A stretch of DNA of 36,880 nt from Agrococcus sp. KRD186 (GTDB lineage: Bacteria; Actinomycetota; Actinomycetes; Actinomycetales; Microbacteriaceae). The stretch lies in contig NZ_JABFAP010000001.1 in assembly GCF_017168255.1 (NCBI RefSeq), positions 620,107 through 656,986 of the forward strand, given 5' to 3'. The notes beneath the pieces are model-generated. The model did no database searches. It was not told where the DNA came from and saw only the letters and a program-made list of their open reading frames with translations. Made by a program: the position numbers and the translations under genes. Below, piece by piece: positions 509 through 8,559 of the stretch. How positions within the stretch are numbered: the stretch's first letter is position 1; every line of letters begins with the position of its first letter.

Positions 509-841
509 CGGGCAGCGCTCCAGAGCGCGGCGAGCCGAGGATTGCTTCGCACGGTGCGGGCGGCGCTCCTGGCGGGGTGGCGGCTGCGCGTCGGCACTCT
601 TACAGCCGTCGATATCGCCGAGCGGAACCAATTTTGATCGCCAGCAATCTCCGGCCGAGGTGCGTCGCCAACAGTTGCCGAGATCACGCCAGTCAAATGG
701 CGGGCTGACTTGATCCGCGCTCCAGGCACGCAGTCGGCATCCGTCTGCGTCGGGCGTCATGCTCGAAGGGGAAGCTCTCGTGCCGCGGGGCTATCGTCGA
801 CGCTCGTCGACGTCCTGGCTATCTTGGTTCTGGGAGCCCCA
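509..841. other. Gene-free stretch inside the element
   Basis: No reading frame here has convincing codon use on either strand. Base composition is more mixed than in the chromosome to the right, with an AT-richer patch near 600-720. I see no transposase, integrase or RNA gene. It probably holds eroded element DNA and the promoter of the gene at 842. Confidence 0.4.
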
Positions 842-1060
842 ATGATCGTCGATCGCAATCCGCTGGACCCTTATACGGATCTTCGGGCGCTCGGTGCTGC
901 GTACATCACGCAGGACGACGTGGCATCCGTATGTCGAGTCACGCCTGAGACCCTGAAGAACTGGCGACACAAAGGCACCGGCCCGCCGTCGACGCGCGGA
1001 AAGATGCCGCTGTATCGCGCTTCCGATGTTGCCGATTGGCTCGACGCGCAGATCAGGTAG
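842..1060 (+). CDS. AlpA/excisionase-like small DNA-binding protein
   Basis: This 72-residue protein has the layout of MerR-superfamily excisionase/AlpA-type helix-turn-helix proteins. A tyrosine (YITQDDVASVCRV) leads into the first helix of the motif, followed by TPETLKNWRHKG as recognition helix, a GPPSTRGKMPLYR wing and a SDVADWLDAQ C-terminal helix. Such proteins act as excision factors or as regulators of integrase genes in phages and integrative elements. The start ATG at 842 has GGGAG about six bases upstream. It sits about 165 bp from the tRNA fragment that I read as the attachment site, the usual place for an excisionase. No integrase is visible; it would lie outside the window or be lost. 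An ordinary regulator with the same fold is the alternative. Confidence 0.72.
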   Translation: MIVDRNPLDPYTDLRALGAAYITQDDVASVCRVTPETLKNWRHKGTGPPSTRGKMPLYRASDVADWLDAQIR

Positions 1061-1332: not shown

Positions 1333-3147
1333 GTGACTGACGCAGGCGGCGTGACGCTGGCCGCCGAGAGGGTGGCGCGGGTGATCGCATCGGCGACCAA
1401 TCGCAGCTTCGCCGGCTCGACCATCGCTGTGCACGGCGACGGCGCCCTGGCGCAGCGGCTCGCCGCGATGCTGCGCGGCTTCGGCGGTCGCATGCTCGAT
1501 GCCGAGCCGGGCCGCGATGGCGATCGGGCCACGACCTCGCGCATCGAGCTGCTCGTGCTGTGCGATGCGCAGCAGTCCGCGCAGCCGGCAGCCGCCGCAG
1601 CTGCGCGCTCGACGGAGGCGCTCGACGCGCTGCTGCGAGGCCTGCCGCTCGTCGACGACGCGATCGTCGTCGACGCATCCGCCGCCGGCTGGGACGCGGG
1701 AGCGGCAGCAGGCGACGAGGTCCGACCGGGCGTGCGCGAGCTGCTGGGCCGCGACCGCACCGCCTTCTGGATGCGCGTCGATCCGAGCGAGCGCCCGCGA
1801 ACCGGTGCTGGGTCGCACGCGCTCGACGCGATCGATGTTGTGACGAGCGCCGACCGCGGCGCGGCCCGCATCGTCTGGGCCCGCCGCTTCATGCGCAGCA
1901 CCACCCTGCTCGCGCGGCAGCTCGGCACCGCACGCGCGCTCGAGGGCCGGCGCATCGGCGTGAGCCTGGTGCTCGAGCCGAAGACCGCCGTGCTCGCACT
2001 CGCGCTCGCGGACGCGGGCGCCGAGGTCGCCGTCTTCGCGAGCTCGGGGGAGACCGACGGCGAGGTCGCGGACGCGCTCGCGCGGCTCGGCATCGCCGTG
2101 TTCGCCGCAGCGGATGCCGGCCCCGACGGCGACGCCCGGCACGCCGCCGCGCTGCTCGACTGGGCGCCGCAACTGCTCGTCGACGACGGCGCGCACCTCG
2201 TGCGGCTCGCCCACACCTCGCAGCCGGAGGCGCTCGCGGCGCTCGCCGGCGCCGCCGAGGAGACCACCAGCGGCGTGCGGCCGCTGCGCGAGATGGCCGC
2301 CGAGGGGGCGCTGCGCGTGCCCGTGATCGCTGTGAACGACGCCCGCACCAAGACGCTCTTCGACAACGTGCACGGCACCGGCCAGTCGTGCGTGCTGGCG
2401 ATCGCCGACCTGCTCGACGTGGCCGGCATCCGCGGCGGTCGGGTGCACGGTGGGCGCTGGACCGTCGTCGGCTACGGTCCCGTCGGCGTCGGCGTCGCCC
2501 GGCACGCGGCGGCCATGGGGGCCCGCGTCACGGTCGTCGAGCATGACCCCGTGCGCGCGCTCGGCGCGATGTTCGACGGCCTCGAGGTGGCGCCGCTCGA
2601 GGCGGCGGTCGCCGCGAGCGACGTGGTCGTGAGCGCCACCGGCCACGCCGGCACCATCACCGTCGATGCGCTGCAGGCCGCCGCCGACGGCTGCGTCTTC
2701 GCGGTCGCCGGCGGCGTCGACCAGGAGATCGAGCTCGACCGCGCCCTCGCGAGCGGCTTCGCCCGCACGACGCTCCAGCCCCACATCGAGCACCTCGAGC
2801 GGCCCGGCGCCGGCAACGTGCTGCTGCTGGCCGGCGGCGACGGCGTCAACTACACGGCGGGGGAGGGCAACCCGATCGAGATCATGGATCTCTCGTTCGC
2901 GACCCAGCTCACCGCGCTGAGCCTGCTGGCCGAGGCGATCGGCGCGGACGGCACGAGCTCGCTCGCCCCCGGCGTGCACGAGCTCGGCGCAGCCGGCGAG
3001 CACGCCATCGCCCGCGCCGCACTCGCCGCGCGCGGCGCACCGGTGCCCGATCGACCCGTGCCCGATCGACCCGGCTGCACGAGCGCCGACGACGCCCACC
3101 CCTGGCGCGAGCACCGCTACCGCCCGACCGCAGAGGACATGCGATGA
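1333..3147 (+). CDS. Adenosylhomocysteinase-like protein with altered active site
   Basis: The 604-residue product belongs to the S-adenosylhomocysteine hydrolase (SAHH) superfamily. Visible landmarks are TAVLALALADAGAEV (about 218-232), LLVDDG (281-286), EETTSGV (309-315), VNDARTKTLFDN (334-345, matching the SAHH segment with catalytic Lys and Asp), the NAD motif GYGPVGVG (380-387) with acidic E403, and SATGHAG (434-440). Several SAHH signatures are replaced: the LHMT histidine by LVLE, IGHFD by AGGVD (about 459-463), and GHP by GNP (512-514). The SCN..STQD segment is absent and the C-terminal KPDHYRY is only loosely matched by REHRYRP. About 180 N-terminal residues precede the SAHH-like part and look like a separate alpha/beta domain. 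The GTG was chosen because of the -10 just upstream; reading further upstream would translate the tRNA scar. It overlaps the amidohydrolase gene by 4 nt. Canonical SAH hydrolysis is therefore doubtful; cleavage of a related thioether nucleoside such as S-inosylhomocysteine is a possibility. Confidence 0.75.
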   Translation: MTDAGGVTLAAERVARVIASATNRSFAGSTIAVHGDGALAQRLAAMLRGFGGRMLDAEPGRDGDRATTSRIELLVLCDAQQSAQPAAAAAARSTEALDALLRGLPLVDDAIVVDASAAGWDAGAAAGDEVRPGVRELLGRDRTAFWMRVDPSERPRTGAGSHALDAIDVVTSADRGAARIVWARRFMRSTTLLARQLGTARALEGRRIGVSLVLEPKTAVLALALADAGAEVAVFASSGETDGEVADALARLGIAVFAAADAGPDGDARHAAALLDWAPQLLVDDGAHLVRLAHTSQPEALAALAGAAEETTSGVRPLREMAAEGALRVPVIAVNDARTKTLFDNVHGTGQSCVLAIADLLDVAGIRGGRVHGGRWTVVGYGPVGVGVARHAAAMGARVTVVEHDPVRALGAMFDGLEVAPLEAAVAASDVVVSATGHAGTITVDALQAAADGCVFAVAGGVDQEIELDRALASGFARTTLQPHIEHLERPGAGNVLLLAGGDGVNYTAGEGNPIEIMDLSFATQLTALSLLAEAIGADGTSSLAPGVHELGAAGEHAIARAALAARGAPVPDRPVPDRPGCTSADDAHPWREHRYRPTAEDMR

Positions 3148-4439
3148 CCGCCCAAGACGCTCCGATCCAGGTCTACTCGGCCGGCCTCGTGATCCCCGTC
3201 ACCGGCCCCCGCATCCTCGACGGCGCGGTCGCCGTGCGCGGCAAGCGCATCCTGCACGTCGGCGACCGGCGCTGGGTGCTCGGCCAGTTGGCCGAGCGCG
3301 GTCGCCCCTCCACCGAGCACCACTGGCCGGGCGTGCTCACGCCGGGCCTCGTCAACGCGCACACGCACCTGCAGTACACCGACATGAGCGAGGTCGCCGA
3401 GCGCACCTACAGCGGCTTCGACGACTGGGGCGATGCCTTCGACGTCGTCTACGAGCGCGAGCAGGGGCACGACTGGGCGGCGGCCTCGGCCCGCGGCGCC
3501 CGCGACTCGATCGCGCACGGCGTCACCAGCGCCGCCGACGTCGTCACCGACATCCCCGCCATCAGCGCGCTGCACGACGCGCGCATGCACGGCATCGCCT
3601 ACTGGGAGGTCTTCGGCCTCAGCAACGAGGTCTGGCACGGCGGCGCACGGGAGTCGGTCGTCGCACAGCTCGAGCGGATGCCGTCCACACCGGGGGTTGG
3701 TGTGTCCCCCCACGCGCCCTACTCTCTCGAGGTCGAGCCGCTGCTGGAGGTGCCCGACATCGCCCGCGAGCGGGGGATGCGGCTGCACATCCACCTTGCC
3801 GAGGCGCACATGGAGCGCGAGCACGACGACGCGGGCGAGCTCTGGCGCGAGGGGGACGCCGCGAGCTTCCGCGCGCTGCGCTCGCAGGGCGTCGGCGTCT
3901 CCTCGACGCAGTTCGTCGACCACCTGGGCGTGCTGGGCCCCGACTGCCACATCGCGCACGGCGTCTACGTGAGCGCGCTCGACCGCGCCCTGCTGCGCGC
4001 CCGCGGCACGAGCGTGGCGCTGTGCCCGCGCTCGAACGCGATCATCGGGCTCGACGAGCCGCCCGTCGCCGCCTACCTCGACGAGGGCAACCCCATCTCG
4101 GTCGGCACCGACTCGCTCGCCTCCTCGCCGTCGCTCGACCTGCTCGACGACGTCAGCGCGCTGCACCGCATCGCCGTCGGCCAGGGCTTCGCCGGCCCGA
4201 ACCTGCACGCGCGGCTCTTCTCGGCCGCCACGCTCGGCGGTGCGACCGCTCTCGGGCTCAGCATGGGCAAGCACCGCGTCGGGCAGCTCGCCGTCGGCGC
4301 CATGGCTGATCTGGCGTTCTTCGACATCCCGGTCACGACCCAGGAGAACACCCTTGCGCACCTCGTCGAAGCCGGTGCCGGCACCTGCGCCCGCACCGTG
4401 ATCGCGGGCGAGCTGCGCTTCGAGCGGGAGGCATCGTGA
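3144..4439 (+). CDS. COG0402 amidohydrolase, SAH/MTA deaminase-like
   Basis: This 431-residue protein has the metal-site pattern of the amidohydrolase superfamily subgroup that deaminates adenosine-type nucleosides and related rings. Key residues are H73 and H75 (LVNAHTHLQYT), H190 (SPHAPYS), H217 and E220 (HIHLAEAHMERE), H272 (HIAHGVYV) and D323 (VGTDSLASSP). Characterised relatives include 5'-methylthioadenosine/SAH deaminase (MtaD/DadD) and aminodeoxyfutalosine deaminase, which have similar HTHLE-type motifs. Start and stop overlap the neighbours by 4 nt on each side, so all three genes should be translated together. Next to an SAHH-like protein, a deaminase acting on SAH, methylthioadenosine or 5'-deoxyadenosine is the most economical reading, but the substrate cannot be seen from the sequence. 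Confidence 0.75.
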   Translation: MTAQDAPIQVYSAGLVIPVTGPRILDGAVAVRGKRILHVGDRRWVLGQLAERGRPSTEHHWPGVLTPGLVNAHTHLQYTDMSEVAERTYSGFDDWGDAFDVVYEREQGHDWAAASARGARDSIAHGVTSAADVVTDIPAISALHDARMHGIAYWEVFGLSNEVWHGGARESVVAQLERMPSTPGVGVSPHAPYSLEVEPLLEVPDIARERGMRLHIHLAEAHMEREHDDAGELWREGDAASFRALRSQGVGVSSTQFVDHLGVLGPDCHIAHGVYVSALDRALLRARGTSVALCPRSNAIIGLDEPPVAAYLDEGNPISVGTDSLASSPSLDLLDDVSALHRIAVGQGFAGPNLHARLFSAATLGGATALGLSMGKHRVGQLAVGAMADLAFFDIPVTTQENTLAHLVEAGAGTCARTVIAGELRFEREAS

Positions 4440-4918
4440 CCGAGCACGAGATGACGGACGCGCGGCCCGTCCGGGCGCGCGAGCTCGACCTGGCGCCGCA
4501 CCCGGAGGGCGGCTGGTACCGGCGCGTCTACACGGCCGCCCACGGCCTGGAGACCGCGAATGGCCCGCGGCCCGCGGCCACGCTCATCCACTTCTTCCTG
4601 CAGCGGCACGAGCATGCCGCGTGGCACAAGGTCACCAGCGACGAGGTGTGGCTCTGGCACGGCCCGGGTGCGCTCGACGTGCACCTCGGCGGCACCGGCG
4701 AGCGCCCTGCCACCGAGTCGGTCGTGCGCCTCGATGCCCCGGGCACCCCGGGCACCGCGCAGCAGATGCTCGTGCCCGCCGGCGTTTGGCAGCAGTCGGT
4801 GCCGGCGGCCGACGCGGCAGTGCGACCCGACGGGGACGTGCTGGTGAGCTGCCTCGTCACGCCCGGATTCGACTTCGCCGACTGGCAGCTCGAGGCCGGC
4901 GCCGGTCATATGGCGTAA
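4436..4918 (+). CDS. DUF985-type cupin protein
   Basis: A 160-residue single-domain beta-barrel protein with the hallmarks of the DUF985 cupin family: an early HPEGGWYRRVY motif, IHFFLQ, WHKVTSDEVWLWHGPG, the VPAGVWQQSV strand, and the CLVTPGFDFADWQLE C-terminal signature. The His and Glu of the HKVTSDE segment and the early His/Glu are the likely metal ligands of the barrel. No biochemical role is firmly established for the family; sugar-isomerase-like or small-molecule-binding activity is usually assumed. It starts with a GTG that overlaps the amidohydrolase stop (GTGA), placing it as third gene of the operon. It may process or bind a product of the two upstream enzymes. Confidence 0.8.
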   Translation: MTEHEMTDARPVRARELDLAPHPEGGWYRRVYTAAHGLETANGPRPAATLIHFFLQRHEHAAWHKVTSDEVWLWHGPGALDVHLGGTGERPATESVVRLDAPGTPGTAQQMLVPAGVWQQSVPAADAAVRPDGDVLVSCLVTPGFDFADWQLEAGAGHMA

Positions 4919-4948
4919 CCGAGTGGCGGACGGGGATCGTCGATCGCA

Positions 4949-5054: not shown

Positions 5055-5918
5055 ATGCTTCGCACCACCCGTCTGCGCGCCGCCGGCACCGTCATCGCCG
5101 CTGCCGCCCTCGTCGCCCTGACCGCCTGCGCCGGCACGGCCGAGCCGGCCGGCTCGCCCGAGCCCGCCACGGGCTCCGAGACCGGGCTGCCGACGCTCGT
5201 CGACGGGCAGCTGACGATCGCCACCGGCCAGCCCGCGTACTCGCCCTGGGTCGAGAACGACGATCCCGAGTCGGGCGAGGGCTTCGAGGCCGCCGTGGCC
5301 TACGCGGTCGCTGAGGAGCTGGGCTTCCCCGCGGAGGACGTGGTGTGGACGCGCACGACCTTCGACAGCGTCATCGCACCGGGCCCCAAGGACTTCGACT
5401 TCAACATCCAGCAGTTCTCGATCAACCCCGACCGGGCCGAGGTCGTCGACTTCTCCTCGCCGTACTACGTGACGAGCCAGGCCGTCGTGTCCCTCGCCGG
5501 CAACGACGGCGCTGAGGCGACCACGATCGCCGAGCTGCGCGAGGTCAGGATCGGCGTGGCCGCGGGCACCACCACGATCGGCGTCGTCGACGAGCTCATC
5601 GATCCGACGGTCGATGTCGCCATCTTCAACAGCAACGAGGACACGGTGCAGGCGCTCATCGCCGGCCAGATCGACGTGCTCGTCACCGACCTGCCCACCG
5701 CGTTCTACAACGCCTACGGCCAGCTCGACGACGGCGTGCTCGTCGGCCAGATCGACAGCGCCGAGGGCGGCGACGAGTTCGCGCTGCTGCTCGAGAAGGA
5801 CTCGCCGCTCACCGACGCGGTGACCGCCGCGGTCGACACGCTGCGCGAGAACGGCACGCTCGACGAGCTCGCCGCCACCTGGATCGCTGACAACGGCGGC
5901 GCCGCCGTCCTGCAGTAG
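5055..5918 (+). CDS. Family 3 amino-acid-binding lipoprotein of an ABC importer
   Basis: A 287-residue extracytoplasmic solute-binding protein. It begins with an Arg-rich n-region, a hydrophobic segment and the lipobox LTAC with Cys25 as the lipidation site. The mature part follows the family 3 pattern: a substrate-binding opening strand (LTIATGQPAYSPWVEN), a GFEAAVAYAVAEELGF helix, FDFNIQQFSINPDRAEVVDFSSPYY, and later ALIAGQIDVLVTDLPTAFY. Relatives bind polar amino acids or cystine. ATG 5055 was chosen because AGGAGAA lies just before it and the signal peptide begins there; in-frame starts further up would add about 44 residues before the signal. The permease gene starts 2 nt after the stop, followed by the ATPase. 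Confidence 0.9.
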   Translation: MLRTTRLRAAGTVIAAAALVALTACAGTAEPAGSPEPATGSETGLPTLVDGQLTIATGQPAYSPWVENDDPESGEGFEAAVAYAVAEELGFPAEDVVWTRTTFDSVIAPGPKDFDFNIQQFSINPDRAEVVDFSSPYYVTSQAVVSLAGNDGAEATTIAELREVRIGVAAGTTTIGVVDELIDPTVDVAIFNSNEDTVQALIAGQIDVLVTDLPTAFYNAYGQLDDGVLVGQIDSAEGGDEFALLLEKDSPLTDAVTAAVDTLRENGTLDELAATWIADNGGAAVLQ

Positions 5919-5920
5919 TC

Positions 5921-6793
5921 GTGCCAGCACCCGAGCGGCCCGCACTCGAGCGGCCCGCGCCGAGCGCCGTCGAGCTCGACCGCCGCGCGTTCCGCAGGCG
6001 CCAGGGCGGCCGATCGATCGCCGTCAGCATCGGCAGCACCATCGTGTTCGCCGTGCTCATCGGCGTCGGGCTCGTCAACAGCCCGGGCTGGGCCGACGTG
6101 CAGCGGTCGTTCTTCGACCTCGAGACCGCGGTCGAGGCCTTCCCCTCGGTCATCGAGGGGCTCTGGCTCAACATCCAGGTGCTCTTCTTCGCCGCCATCG
6201 GGGTGGCCGTGCTCGGCAGCCTGCTGGCCATCGCGCGCACCCTTCGGGGGCCGATCTTCACGCCGCTGCGCTTCGCCGCCGCGATCTACACCGACCTCTT
6301 CCGCGGCATCCCGCTGCTGCTGGTGCTCTACCTGGTGGGCTTCGGGCTGCCCGGCCTCGACCTCTTCGGCCGCGTGCCCGCGCAGGTGTGGGGCACGATC
6401 GCGCTCATCCTCACCTACTCGGCGTACGTCTCCGAGGTGCTGCGAGCCGGCATCGAGGCGGTGCACCCCTCGCAGCGCCTCGCCTCGCGCTCGCTCGGCC
6501 TCGGCTACGCGAAGACACTGCGGCTGGTGGTGCTGCCTCAGGCGGTGCGCAGGGTGACGCCCGCGCTCATGAACGACTTCGTCTCGATGCAGAAGGATGT
6601 CGGCCTCATCTCGGTGCTCGGCGCCGTCGACGCGATCCGCGCGGCGCAGATCGAGGTCGCGGCGTCCTACAACTTCACGCCCTACGTGCTCGCCGGCATC
6701 CTCTTCATCGCGCTGTCGTGGCCGATGATCCGCCTCACCGACTGGTACACGGCCAGGGCGCAGCGGCGTGAGCAGATCGGAGGCTCGGTGTGA
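5921..6793 (+). CDS. Amino-acid ABC transporter permease
   Basis: This 290-residue inner-membrane protein has a hydrophilic Arg-rich N-terminus, a first membrane span (VSIGSTIVFAVLIGVGLV), an extracytoplasmic loop and a HisM/GlnP-type core of about five spans. The EAA loop that docks on the ATPase is clear: LRAGIEAVHPSQRLASRSLG followed by LGYAKTLRLVVLPQAVRR. The segment NDFVSMQKDVGLISVLG is also typical of polar amino-acid permeases. It starts with GTG 2 nt after the binding-protein stop and overlaps the ATPase start by 4 nt. Only one permease gene is present, so the transporter is probably a homodimer of this subunit. Near the N-terminus the DNA has a 15-bp repeat (CGAGCGGCCCGCACT type) that duplicates ERPALERPA. 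Confidence 0.9.
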   Translation: MPAPERPALERPAPSAVELDRRAFRRRQGGRSIAVSIGSTIVFAVLIGVGLVNSPGWADVQRSFFDLETAVEAFPSVIEGLWLNIQVLFFAAIGVAVLGSLLAIARTLRGPIFTPLRFAAAIYTDLFRGIPLLLVLYLVGFGLPGLDLFGRVPAQVWGTIALILTYSAYVSEVLRAGIEAVHPSQRLASRSLGLGYAKTLRLVVLPQAVRRVTPALMNDFVSMQKDVGLISVLGAVDAIRAAQIEVAASYNFTPYVLAGILFIALSWPMIRLTDWYTARAQRREQIGGSV

Positions 6794-7548
6794 GCGAGCA
6801 GCAGGCAGCGCCGGTGCTGCGCATCGACGGCGTGCACAAGTGGTTCGGCGACACCCCGGTGCTGCGCGGCATCGACATCGAGGTCGCGCAGCACGAGGTG
6901 GTGGTGCTGATCGGCGCGAGCGGCTCGGGCAAGTCCACGCTGCTCAAGACCATCAACCTGCTCGAGCCGGTCGACGACGGCCGGATCTTCCTGGGCGAGA
7001 CCGACATCACCGACCCGCGCGTCGACGCCGACCGCATCCGCGGCCGCATCGGTGTCGTGTTCCAGCACTACAACCTCTTCCCGCACATGCACGTGCTCGA
7101 CAACGTCACGCTCGCGAGCCGCAAGGTGTTCGGCGTCAAGCGTGCCGTCGCCGAGCAGCGCGGGCGCGAGCTGCTCGAGCGCATCGGCCTCGCCGACAAG
7201 GCGCGCGACTACCCCGACCGGCTCTCGGGCGGCCAGCAGCAGCGCGTCGCGATCGCCCGCGCGATCGCGACTGACCCCGAGGTGCTGCTGCTCGACGAGA
7301 TCACGAGCGCCCTCGACCCGCAGCTCGTGGGTGAGGTGCTCGATCTCGTGCGCGAGCTCAAGGCGGGCGGCAGCACGATGCTGATGGCGACGCACGAGAT
7401 GTCGTTCGCGCGCCGCGTCGCCGACCGCGTGATCTTCCTCAAGGACGGGCGCATCGTCGAGTCGGGCACGCCGCAGCAGATATTCGACGCGCCGCGCGAG
7501 CCCGAGACGCGCGAGTTCCTGGCGCGGCTGCAGGACCCGCTCGCGTAG
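6790..7548 (+). CDS. Amino-acid ABC transporter ATP-binding protein
   Basis: A 252-residue ATPase of the GlnQ/HisP group. It has Walker A GASGSGKST (42-50), the Q-loop in VVFQHYNLFPHM (about 89-100), signature LSGGQ (145-149), Walker B LLLDE (166-170) and the switch His at 202 (ATHEMSFA). The polar amino-acid class is supported by ITSALDPQLVGEVLDLV and by THEMSFARRVADRVIFLKDG. It starts with GTG overlapping the permease stop and closes the operon. Length and all catalytic motifs are intact, so the importer should be functional. Confidence 0.92.
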   Translation: MSEQQAAPVLRIDGVHKWFGDTPVLRGIDIEVAQHEVVVLIGASGSGKSTLLKTINLLEPVDDGRIFLGETDITDPRVDADRIRGRIGVVFQHYNLFPHMHVLDNVTLASRKVFGVKRAVAEQRGRELLERIGLADKARDYPDRLSGGQQQRVAIARAIATDPEVLLLDEITSALDPQLVGEVLDLVRELKAGGSTMLMATHEMSFARRVADRVIFLKDGRIVESGTPQQIFDAPREPETREFLARLQDPLA

Positions 7549-7602: not shown

Positions 7603-8559
7603 TCAGGCGCCGTCGGCGATCTCTCGCGGGTGCGGCCGGGTCGCGAGCCGCCGCTGCGCCACCAGCACCACGGCGACGCCCGCCGCCGCGACCGCCATGC
7701 CGATCACGCCGAGCGGCGAGACCGGCACGCCGAAGACGAGCCACACCCACAGCATCGTGGTCGGCGGCGTCAGGTAGAGCATCGTCGAGACGAAGGTCGC
7801 GCCGTGCGAGCGCGTCACCGTGACGTAGAGCACGTATCCGCCCAGGCTCGACAGGCACACCAGCCACACGATCGCGCCCCAGATGTCGATCGAGGTCGGC
7901 ACGGCGGCCTGCCCCCGCACCAGCGCCACCAGCATGAAGGCTCCGGCAGCCACCACCGCCTGCATCAGCAGCGTCTGCAGCAGGTCGTCGTGCGCGTGCC
8001 AGCGGCGCTGCAGCACCGTGCCGCTCCCGAGGCAGAGCACACCGATCAGCGGCAGGGCGTAAGCCCACAGCGGTGCGTCCGACAGCCCCAGCTGCCCGGA
8101 GACCACGAGCGCGACGCCGGCGAACCCGGCGAGCATGCCCGCCCACATCCACCCGTTGGCGCGCTCGCCCAGGAACCGGCCCGCGACCGTGGCGACGAGC
8201 ATCGGCTGCAGCGCCGCGATCAGCGATGCGGTGCCGCCGTCGACGCCGAAGCGCACGCCCTCGAAGATCATCAGCAGGTAGCCGAACTGGCTGAGCAGCG
8301 CGATGCCGCCCTGCCGCAGCCAGCTGCGCCACCGAGGCCAGCGTCGGCGAGCGATCAGCATCGCCGCGACGAGCAGGCCCGAGAGCACCGTGAACCGCCA
8401 GGCGAGCACGGTCACCGGCTCGCCGCCCGCGCGCGCCGCCAGCTCCGCGCCGACGAAGCCCGAGCTCCACATGACGACCAGCCCGACCGAGGCGACGACG
8501 ATCGCGATCGAGCCCAGGTGCATCGAGCGCGCTGGCCGGTCGCTCACGGAATCAGACAC
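7603..8559 (-). CDS. EamA/DMT-family transporter
   Basis: A 318-residue membrane protein with about ten hydrophobic spans in two homologous halves, as in the drug/metabolite transporter superfamily (EamA domains). Typical features are VGLVVMWSSGFVGAELAARAG near the N-terminus, IEG-type motif LMIFEGVRFGVDGGTASLIAAL, RFLGERANGWMWAGMLAGFAGVALVVSG at the end of half one, and STMLYLTPPTTMLWVWLVFGVPVSPLGVIGMAVAAAGVAVV at the end of half two. Relatives export amino acids or metabolites, but no substrate can be assigned. The GTG at 8559 is preceded by CAGGAT at leaderless spacing, so the start is plausible but not certain. It lies downstream of sigK-rskA on the same strand and may once have followed rskA directly. 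Confidence 0.85.
   Translation of the reverse strand: MSDSVSDRPARSMHLGSIAIVVASVGLVVMWSSGFVGAELAARAGGEPVTVLAWRFTVLSGLLVAAMLIARRRWPRWRSWLRQGGIALLSQFGYLLMIFEGVRFGVDGGTASLIAALQPMLVATVAGRFLGERANGWMWAGMLAGFAGVALVVSGQLGLSDAPLWAYALPLIGVLCLGSGTVLQRRWHAHDDLLQTLLMQAVVAAGAFMLVALVRGQAAVPTSIDIWGAIVWLVCLSSLGGYVLYVTVTRSHGATFVSTMLYLTPPTTMLWVWLVFGVPVSPLGVIGMAVAAAGVAVVLVAQRRLATRPHPREIADGA

Follow-up and report, generated by a model that had tools for sequence, protein, structure and literature searches.

An S-adenosylhomocysteine hydrolase-like enzyme with replaced active-site histidines in a conserved uptake operon of Agrococcus sp. KRD186

The stretch of DNA analysed here (the window; 36,880 nucleotides, C1:620107-656986 of the 3.10 Mb genome of Agrococcus sp. 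KRD186) carries near its start a gene for a homologue of S-adenosylhomocysteine (SAH) hydrolase (SAHH; EC 3.13.2.1), termed S2, followed by genes for a COG0402 amidohydrolase (AMI), a cupin and an ATP-binding cassette (ABC) importer. S2 was found to retain the residues for binding nicotinamide adenine dinucleotide (NAD) and for substrate oxidation, with three active-site histidines of SAHH replaced in it and in its homologues. The enzyme variant is real and occurs widely, and the uptake operon to which it belongs is conserved. The features of the locus are as follows:

1333..3147, + strand: S2, SAHH-like enzyme, 604 aa (Pfam AdoHcyase and AdoHcyase_NAD)
1333..1848, + strand: N-terminal NAD-domain relic of a sister SAHH subunit (S1), about residues 1-172 of S2 (hidden Markov model (HMM) of the N-domain)
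3144..4439, + strand: AMI, COG0402 amidohydrolase, likely a deaminase, 431 aa (Pfam Amidohydro_1 and metal-site residues)
4436..4918, + strand: Cupin_5 (DUF985) protein, 160 aa (Pfam)
5055..5918 (open frame from 4923), + strand: solute-binding lipoprotein of a polar-amino-acid ABC importer
5921..6793, + strand: ABC permease, HEQRo 3-TM family
6790..7548, + strand: ABC ATPase
7603..8559, - strand: weakly DMT-exporter-like gene just after the importer (scores below every curated cut-off)

An earlier note on this DNA had described the first three genes as a single translation unit. All three are present and the overlaps are real, with four-base stop-start overlaps (ATGA and GTGA) at the S2/AMI and AMI/cupin joins, but the operon continues through the ABC importer to 7548. 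The GTG at 1333 is a plausible start for S2, and ATG 5055, lying ahead of a signal with LTAC, would be a likelier start for the lipoprotein than 4923. Neighbouring genes were called with a simple, untrained open reading frame caller; among them, the minus-strand gene could export a product.

The active site of S2 was examined in 98 distinct S2 cores, with row counts taken from 103 S2 rows. The 103 loci comprise the best 80 of at least 578 stretches that encode relatives in the sequence collection used, 22 loci from the host's family and the window, some genomes being shared. Residues of SAHH are given by what we take to be their human numbers, the window equivalents of H55, H301 and H353 being V213, G461 and N513. 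The SAHH framework recognised in the earlier note (DDG, EETTSGV, NDxxTKxxFDN, GYGxVGxG) was confirmed, the window reading DDG, EETTSGV, NDARTKTLFDN and GYGPVGVG. The three histidine positions are indeed replaced in the window, in the segments LVLE, AGGVD and GNP, and the pattern holds across the 98 cores. At the H55 position V (78), F (8), I (5), T (5), L (1) or a gap (1) was found and His never, the H301 position is Gly in 98/98, and that of H353 is Asn in 97 and Asp in 1. In addition, F302 of the gate is absent across the 103 rows. As the same replacements occur in 98 distinct homologous cores, they are not due to chance. The STQD segment, which had been thought gone, instead carries other residues, for the most part ETD (E in 82, T in 83 and D in 81 of 103 rows).

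Residues of the 3'-oxidation and C4' side are retained, namely K186 and D190 (each 98/98 cores) and N181 and D131 (each 97/98), all of which are present in the window, as is E156 (92/98; Q in 5, D in 1). The NAD glycines are invariant (103/103 rows). S2 thus retains the oxidation side of the SAHH site without the 5'-side histidines. According to PMC13406329, the 5'-OH is contacted by the His after beta-1 and the Asp after beta-4, with H301-F302 forming the gate. The HxExK fingerprint could be scored in 97 cores, of which 96 have the E, 97 the K and 0 the H, so that the full HxExK was found in none. According to PMC10978960, HxExK enzymes prefer S-inosylhomocysteine, and the Lys of the fingerprint can bind O6 of inosine. 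S2 also possesses fixed residues of its own: with locus L052 left out, R291, S313, G461 and N513 are invariant (97/97) and P216 occurs in 96/97, while these are absent or nearly absent in ten reference rows (five S1, Tm, Pfu, methanogen and two canonical), R291 occurring in 0/10.

The predicted structure of S2 (mean pLDDT 83.4; best PDB match 3x2f, TM 0.88 by target length) indicates an SAHH fold that is not collapsed; a collapsed NAD or substrate site had been named in the earlier note as evidence against its proposal. Against TIGR00936, S2 scored 278.7 bits, under the curated cut-off of 497.6, and against the looser NF004005 322.8 bits, above the cut-off of 275. The C-terminal tails (24 rows) were too variable for alignment of the Lys/Tyr that completes the neighbour's NAD site.

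The N-terminal extension of S2 is a remnant of the NAD domain of the sister subunit S1. The earlier note had seen an extra N-terminal domain of about 180 residues; the extension exists, but it is an SAHH NAD domain in degenerate form, some 172 residues long. In five loci (L046, L100, L108, L121 and L125) a second, intact SAHH gene, S1, immediately precedes that of S2, and all five S1 keep the three His at the H55, H301 and H353 places. The S1 of L119 is full length with most site residues lost, and is considered dead. A stand-alone NAD-domain gene lies upstream of S2 in 12 loci (L042, L044, L090, L095, L097, L099, L110, L112, L113, L115, L141 and L146; N-domain HMM scores are weak in L095, 15.7 bits, and L113, 10.0 bits), and in the window and most other loci the domain is fused to S2. 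The HMM was built from 18 fused domains and run on the 15742 open frames of the loci, where it gave 92 matches at E <= 0.01: 81 SAHH-like frames, 11 stand-alone genes and no other. The window S2 scored 22.5 bits (E 7e-5). A match was found upstream of 62/98 cores; the 36 cores missed comprise 12 with a stand-alone domain gene, 6 with an S1 gene and 18 that were not placed. Compared as profiles, nine stand-alone domains and the S2 core aligned over the NAD domain of the latter (probability 96.0, E 4.4e-9), and the first 21 Foldseek PDB matches of the modelled L099 domain (mean pLDDT 76.2, predicted TM (pTM) 0.71) were all SAHH.

A tree of 63 rows, 42 of them S2 (paired support values), placed S2 as one side of a branch (42/42 rows, 100/100). 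As to where S2 falls in the SAHH family, a question raised in the earlier note, the S1+S2 clade (99/94) was found to group with archaeal-type rows and not with canonical AhcY. Five sampled S2 with an intact S1 form their own group (100/99) and the other 37 come together at 83/38. Within the latter, L117 and L119 (100/99) stand apart from 35 (100/99), among which six sampled S2 with a stand-alone domain (82/20) are separate from 29 (99/97) in which the domain, wherever assignable, is fused. The S1 of L119 has a long branch (length 1.76), making its place less sure. The branching order fits a stepwise decay of S1, two of the forks being weak, in which the partner would have lost its active site, shrunk to its NAD domain and become fused to S2. 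In SAHH the tetramer core includes NAD-domain helices and C-terminal tails, as described in PMC13406329. The relic may therefore stand in for S1 in the assembly, and was most likely retained as part of the oligomer core. A further SAHH gene next to S2 in Olegusella (L134:10719-11990) groups with the methanogen enzyme 7r3a (88/94) and is not part of the S1 group.

Among the best 80 stretches, S2 loci were mainly from Microbacteriaceae, with others from Schaalia/Actinomyces, Bifidobacterium, Nocardia, Mycolicibacterium, Nonomuraea, Demequina, propionibacteria, Atopobium/Olegusella and two gammaproteobacterial metagenome-assembled genomes (MAGs). The linkage of S2 to AMI was then assessed in 120 genomes of the host's family (S2: >260 bits and >=38% identity; AMI orthologue: E <= 1e-60). 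Each was found in 23 genomes: 22 have both, one has S2 only (G024), one AMI only (G093) and 96 neither (Fisher p = 8e-22, ignoring kinship). The pair thus co-occurs in other genomes, the absence of which the earlier note had named as a refutation. Six genera (g1, g2, g15, g17, g29 and g43) include one genome with both genes and a congener with neither, indicating that the two genes tend to be gained and lost together. AMI is present in 99 of the 103 S2 loci, and the two genes form a single reading frame in three (L037, L071 and L085). The exceptions are L049, at a contig end with AMI on another contig, L125, on a short contig, L100 and L052. The last is that of G024, in whose genome the AMI orthologue search found none (best E 1.3e-8) and whose S2 reads DDAADG for EETTSG and DSD for DDG, with several otherwise fixed residues lost. 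Such decay would be expected if S2 were useless without AMI, though this is a single case.

This distribution also bears on whether S2 might be a pseudoenzyme or regulator. The eukaryotic regulators AHCYL1 and AHCYL2 are SAHH paralogues with an N-terminal extension, and the paralogues associate. S2 also has an extension and has lost key His, and the hetero-oligomerisation known for SAHH paralogues would suit such a role. The AHCYL extension is not known to be an SAHH-domain relic, as that of S2 is. However, the conservation of the NAD glycines, K186 and D190, together with the tight linkage to an enzyme and to importers, makes an AHCYL1-like S2 highly improbable. The decayed paralogue is moreover S1, S2 being decayed only in G024.

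The earlier note's description of AMI as a COG0402 amidohydrolase with an intact metal site (HxH, HxxE, H and D) is upheld by H73, H75, H217 and E220 in 94/94 rows and by H269, H272 and D323 in 93/94, with one gap. From its family and metal site, AMI is likely a deaminase. Near full-length PDB matches of AMI include 4gbd/4dyk and an aminofutalosine deaminase; 4gbd/4dyk, along with 1p1m, are presumably TM0936/PA3170-type deaminases of 5'-methylthioadenosine (MTA) and SAH. AMI resembles these in its COG0402 fold and metal-site residues but has motifs of its own (NAHxHLQY and SPHApYSL) and scores no higher than 69.9 bits against any solved structure. The cupin gene, which had been suggested to handle a product, occurs in 66 of the 103 S2 loci and is thus optional.

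Importers near the pair were of the amino-acid ABC type in 76 of the 103 loci, of the energy-coupling factor (ECF) type with a RibU-like S component in 10 and of the CUT1 type in 4, with 13 having no match to the queries (types in L042, L044 and L046 were assigned by hand). The binding protein keeps residues of LAO that we take to be its clamp for alpha-amino acids: R77 corresponds to R171 in 71/71 and D161 to D256 in 67/71 (N in 4/71), numbered from the open frame start at 4923. Five Microbacterium loci among the 13 (L110, L112, L115, L141 and L146) possess a nucleoside hydrolase gene downstream of AMI on the opposite strand (IU_nuc_hydro in L110, by similarity in the others), followed by a CUT1-type importer. 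A luciferase-family gene, NtaA/DmoA-type by score in L110, lies directly 3' of AMI in L110, L112 and L141. In G093 (L147:6372-11728), AMI stands in a row with MetQNI-like genes (MetQ, MetN and MetI scoring under curated cut-offs), an NtaA/DmoA-type monooxygenase and CUT1-like ABC genes. Together, the importer types, the clamp and the neighbours in the Microbacterium loci and in G093 suggest, as circumstantial evidence, an adenosine compound bearing an amino acid and perhaps sulfur. The clamp would also suit a non-nucleoside substrate, with AMI opening or deaminating another cyclic amidine amino acid and S2 acting on the hydroxylated product, and the distance of AMI from every curated equivalog (best 109.2 of 532 bits; none of 24 families passed) agrees with this. 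It is nevertheless quite unlikely, as S2 keeps nucleobase and ribose contacts (E/K, E156, T157, K186 and D190) and its sister S1 keeps the SAHH site.

We propose tentatively, at somewhat less than an even chance, that the operon serves the uptake and breakdown of a 5'-substituted adenosine with an alpha-amino acid, of the SAH class. The ABC importer would take the compound in, as the conserved clamp suggests, and AMI would convert its adenine to hypoxanthine. S2 would then hold the hypoxanthine nucleoside via the E-x-K pair, its bound NAD would oxidise the 3'-OH and the K/D/N/D residues observed in its site would take the C4' proton, after which the 5'-substituent would be released by beta-elimination. 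Because the two 5'-side His of SAHH and of AgmF, the angustmycin dehydratase, are gone, S2 probably acts on a leaving group needing no acid, stops at a 4',5'-unsaturated nucleoside, or employs other residues such as R291.

Two variants of this chemistry were also considered. The earlier note had proposed, on the model of methanogens, that AMI converts SAH to S-inosylhomocysteine, which S2 hydrolyses to inosine and homocysteine. The co-occurrence and fusions of the pair, the placement of S1+S2 with archaeal-type enzymes and the xExK fingerprint beside a deaminase (PMC10978960) support it, as do 7/23 S2 genomes with neither canonical ahcY nor MTAN over cut-off. The loss in 98/98 cores of H55 and of the His-Phe gate, which make the O5' and homocysteine-channel contacts in SAHH, speaks against plain S-inosylhomocysteine hydrolase chemistry; the genome has ahcY and the cluster has its own importer, overlooked in the note, which points to uptake rather than recycling. 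This form is therefore unlikely, and deamination overall is a sound lead and not yet a result. Alternatively, the loss of three imidazoles together with a leaving thioether that needs no protonation would suit a sulfonium nucleoside (S-adenosylmethionine (SAM) or its inosyl form), from which S2, as an NAD-dependent lyase or hydrolase, would release methionine via a 3'-keto intermediate. We know of no such route for SAM-type breakdown, and regard this as very unlikely.

A different outcome of the retained oxidation would be a redox nucleosidase, in which the base leaves instead of the 5' group. This would accord with the loss of 5'-side residues, since acid-base residues at C5' could be dispensable. 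It appears decidedly unlikely, as D131, the residue that removes the C4' proton in SAHH, persists in 97/98 cores, and the step would be redundant in the five Microbacterium loci with a nucleoside hydrolase gene close by.

Several observations weigh against the proposed uptake and breakdown of an SAH-class nucleoside. The xExK is also present in the Tm, Pfu and methanogen rows and is ancestral to the branch; being inherited, it is no proof of a present hypoxanthine substrate. AMI is without a close characterised relative as judged by sequence comparison, and its top PDB match is an 8-oxoguanine deaminase covering half of its length. The binding protein has Gln-Gln in place of LAO S69/S70 (71/71), which means that it binds something other than a simple amino acid. 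Locus L100 has S1, S2 and the importer, with AMI not in the contig. AgmF is killed by H56A and by H299A (PMC8599513), and the loss of both His in S2 may mean that no elimination takes place. Finally, canonical ahcY is over cut-off in 13/23 S2 genomes and not in the other 10, in which S2 possibly has a housekeeping role. Lack of ahcY is common anyway, as 31/120 family genomes have none over cut-off, at least two of these having it only as contig fragments. MTAN is over cut-off in 5/23 S2 genomes.

Whether the window's genome also has a canonical ahcY had been left as a check; it does (448.4 bits to PF05221, 607.7 bits to TIGR00936), and SAH recycling as the sole role of S2 was accordingly rejected for this genome, 13/23 S2 genomes having ahcY as well. 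The genome also encodes a short SAHH paralogue of 391 aa (about C1:1828476-1829639), belonging to a subfamily of roughly 390-400 aa (L005:6483-7658 and L054-L066, of which L056 is a canonical ahcY locus). This subfamily has D131 replaced by N and D190 by E in 13/13 rows and GNS for GHP in 12/13, and in relatives it lies in a nucleoside-salvage cluster whose genes, read from sequences with no family scan, include nucleoside ABC permeases, thymidine phosphorylase, cytidine deaminase, adenosine deaminase and purine phosphorylase. It is of the HxExK branch and has GNS rather than GHP but, unlike S2, keeps H55 and the gate His-Phe. A scan of 20 S2 loci (4.0-4.8 kb) with Rfam for a riboswitch as a clue to the substrate returned one tRNA and nothing else. 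A stretch of 35 bases at 1221-1255 of the window is an exact repeat of G000:C1 606489-606523, where an intact tRNA-Pro(TGG) gene has its 3' end. The approximately 14.8 kb between the copies encode a type I restriction R-like gene (L007:29-3094) and an HTH_17 protein (window 797-1060), and a tRNA-integrated island seems to end immediately 5' of S2.

Among known systems, S2-AMI resembles the archaeal-type SAHH or S-inosylhomocysteine hydrolase with DadD of T. maritima and methanogens in SAHH fold, NAD site, E-x-K and a deaminase in the pathway (PMC10978960), the likeness of AMI to DadD being at COG0402 level. It differs in that H55, the gate His-Phe and H353 are replaced, and in the N-terminal NAD relic and the importer operon. 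AgmF is comparable to S2 as an SAHH-like enzyme for a non-SAH nucleoside, and binds NAD tightly; according to PMC8599513, the mutants H56A, D129A, K184A, D188A and H299A are all dead. AgmF thus needs both histidines, unlike S2, and builds an antibiotic. No open-licence paper was found that, by title and abstract, describes an S2-AMI cluster.

SAHH is among the most conserved enzymes, and its histidines are regarded as essential. A clade without these histidines that keeps the oxidation site, spread over Actinomycetota and two gammaproteobacterial MAGs, offers a test of which residues serve each half-reaction. The decay of a partner subunit can also be followed in living genomes, from loss of the active site through reduction to a single domain to fusion with the sister. 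Should the substrate be identified, the operon would represent a way for bacteria to take up SAH- or SAM-like compounds.

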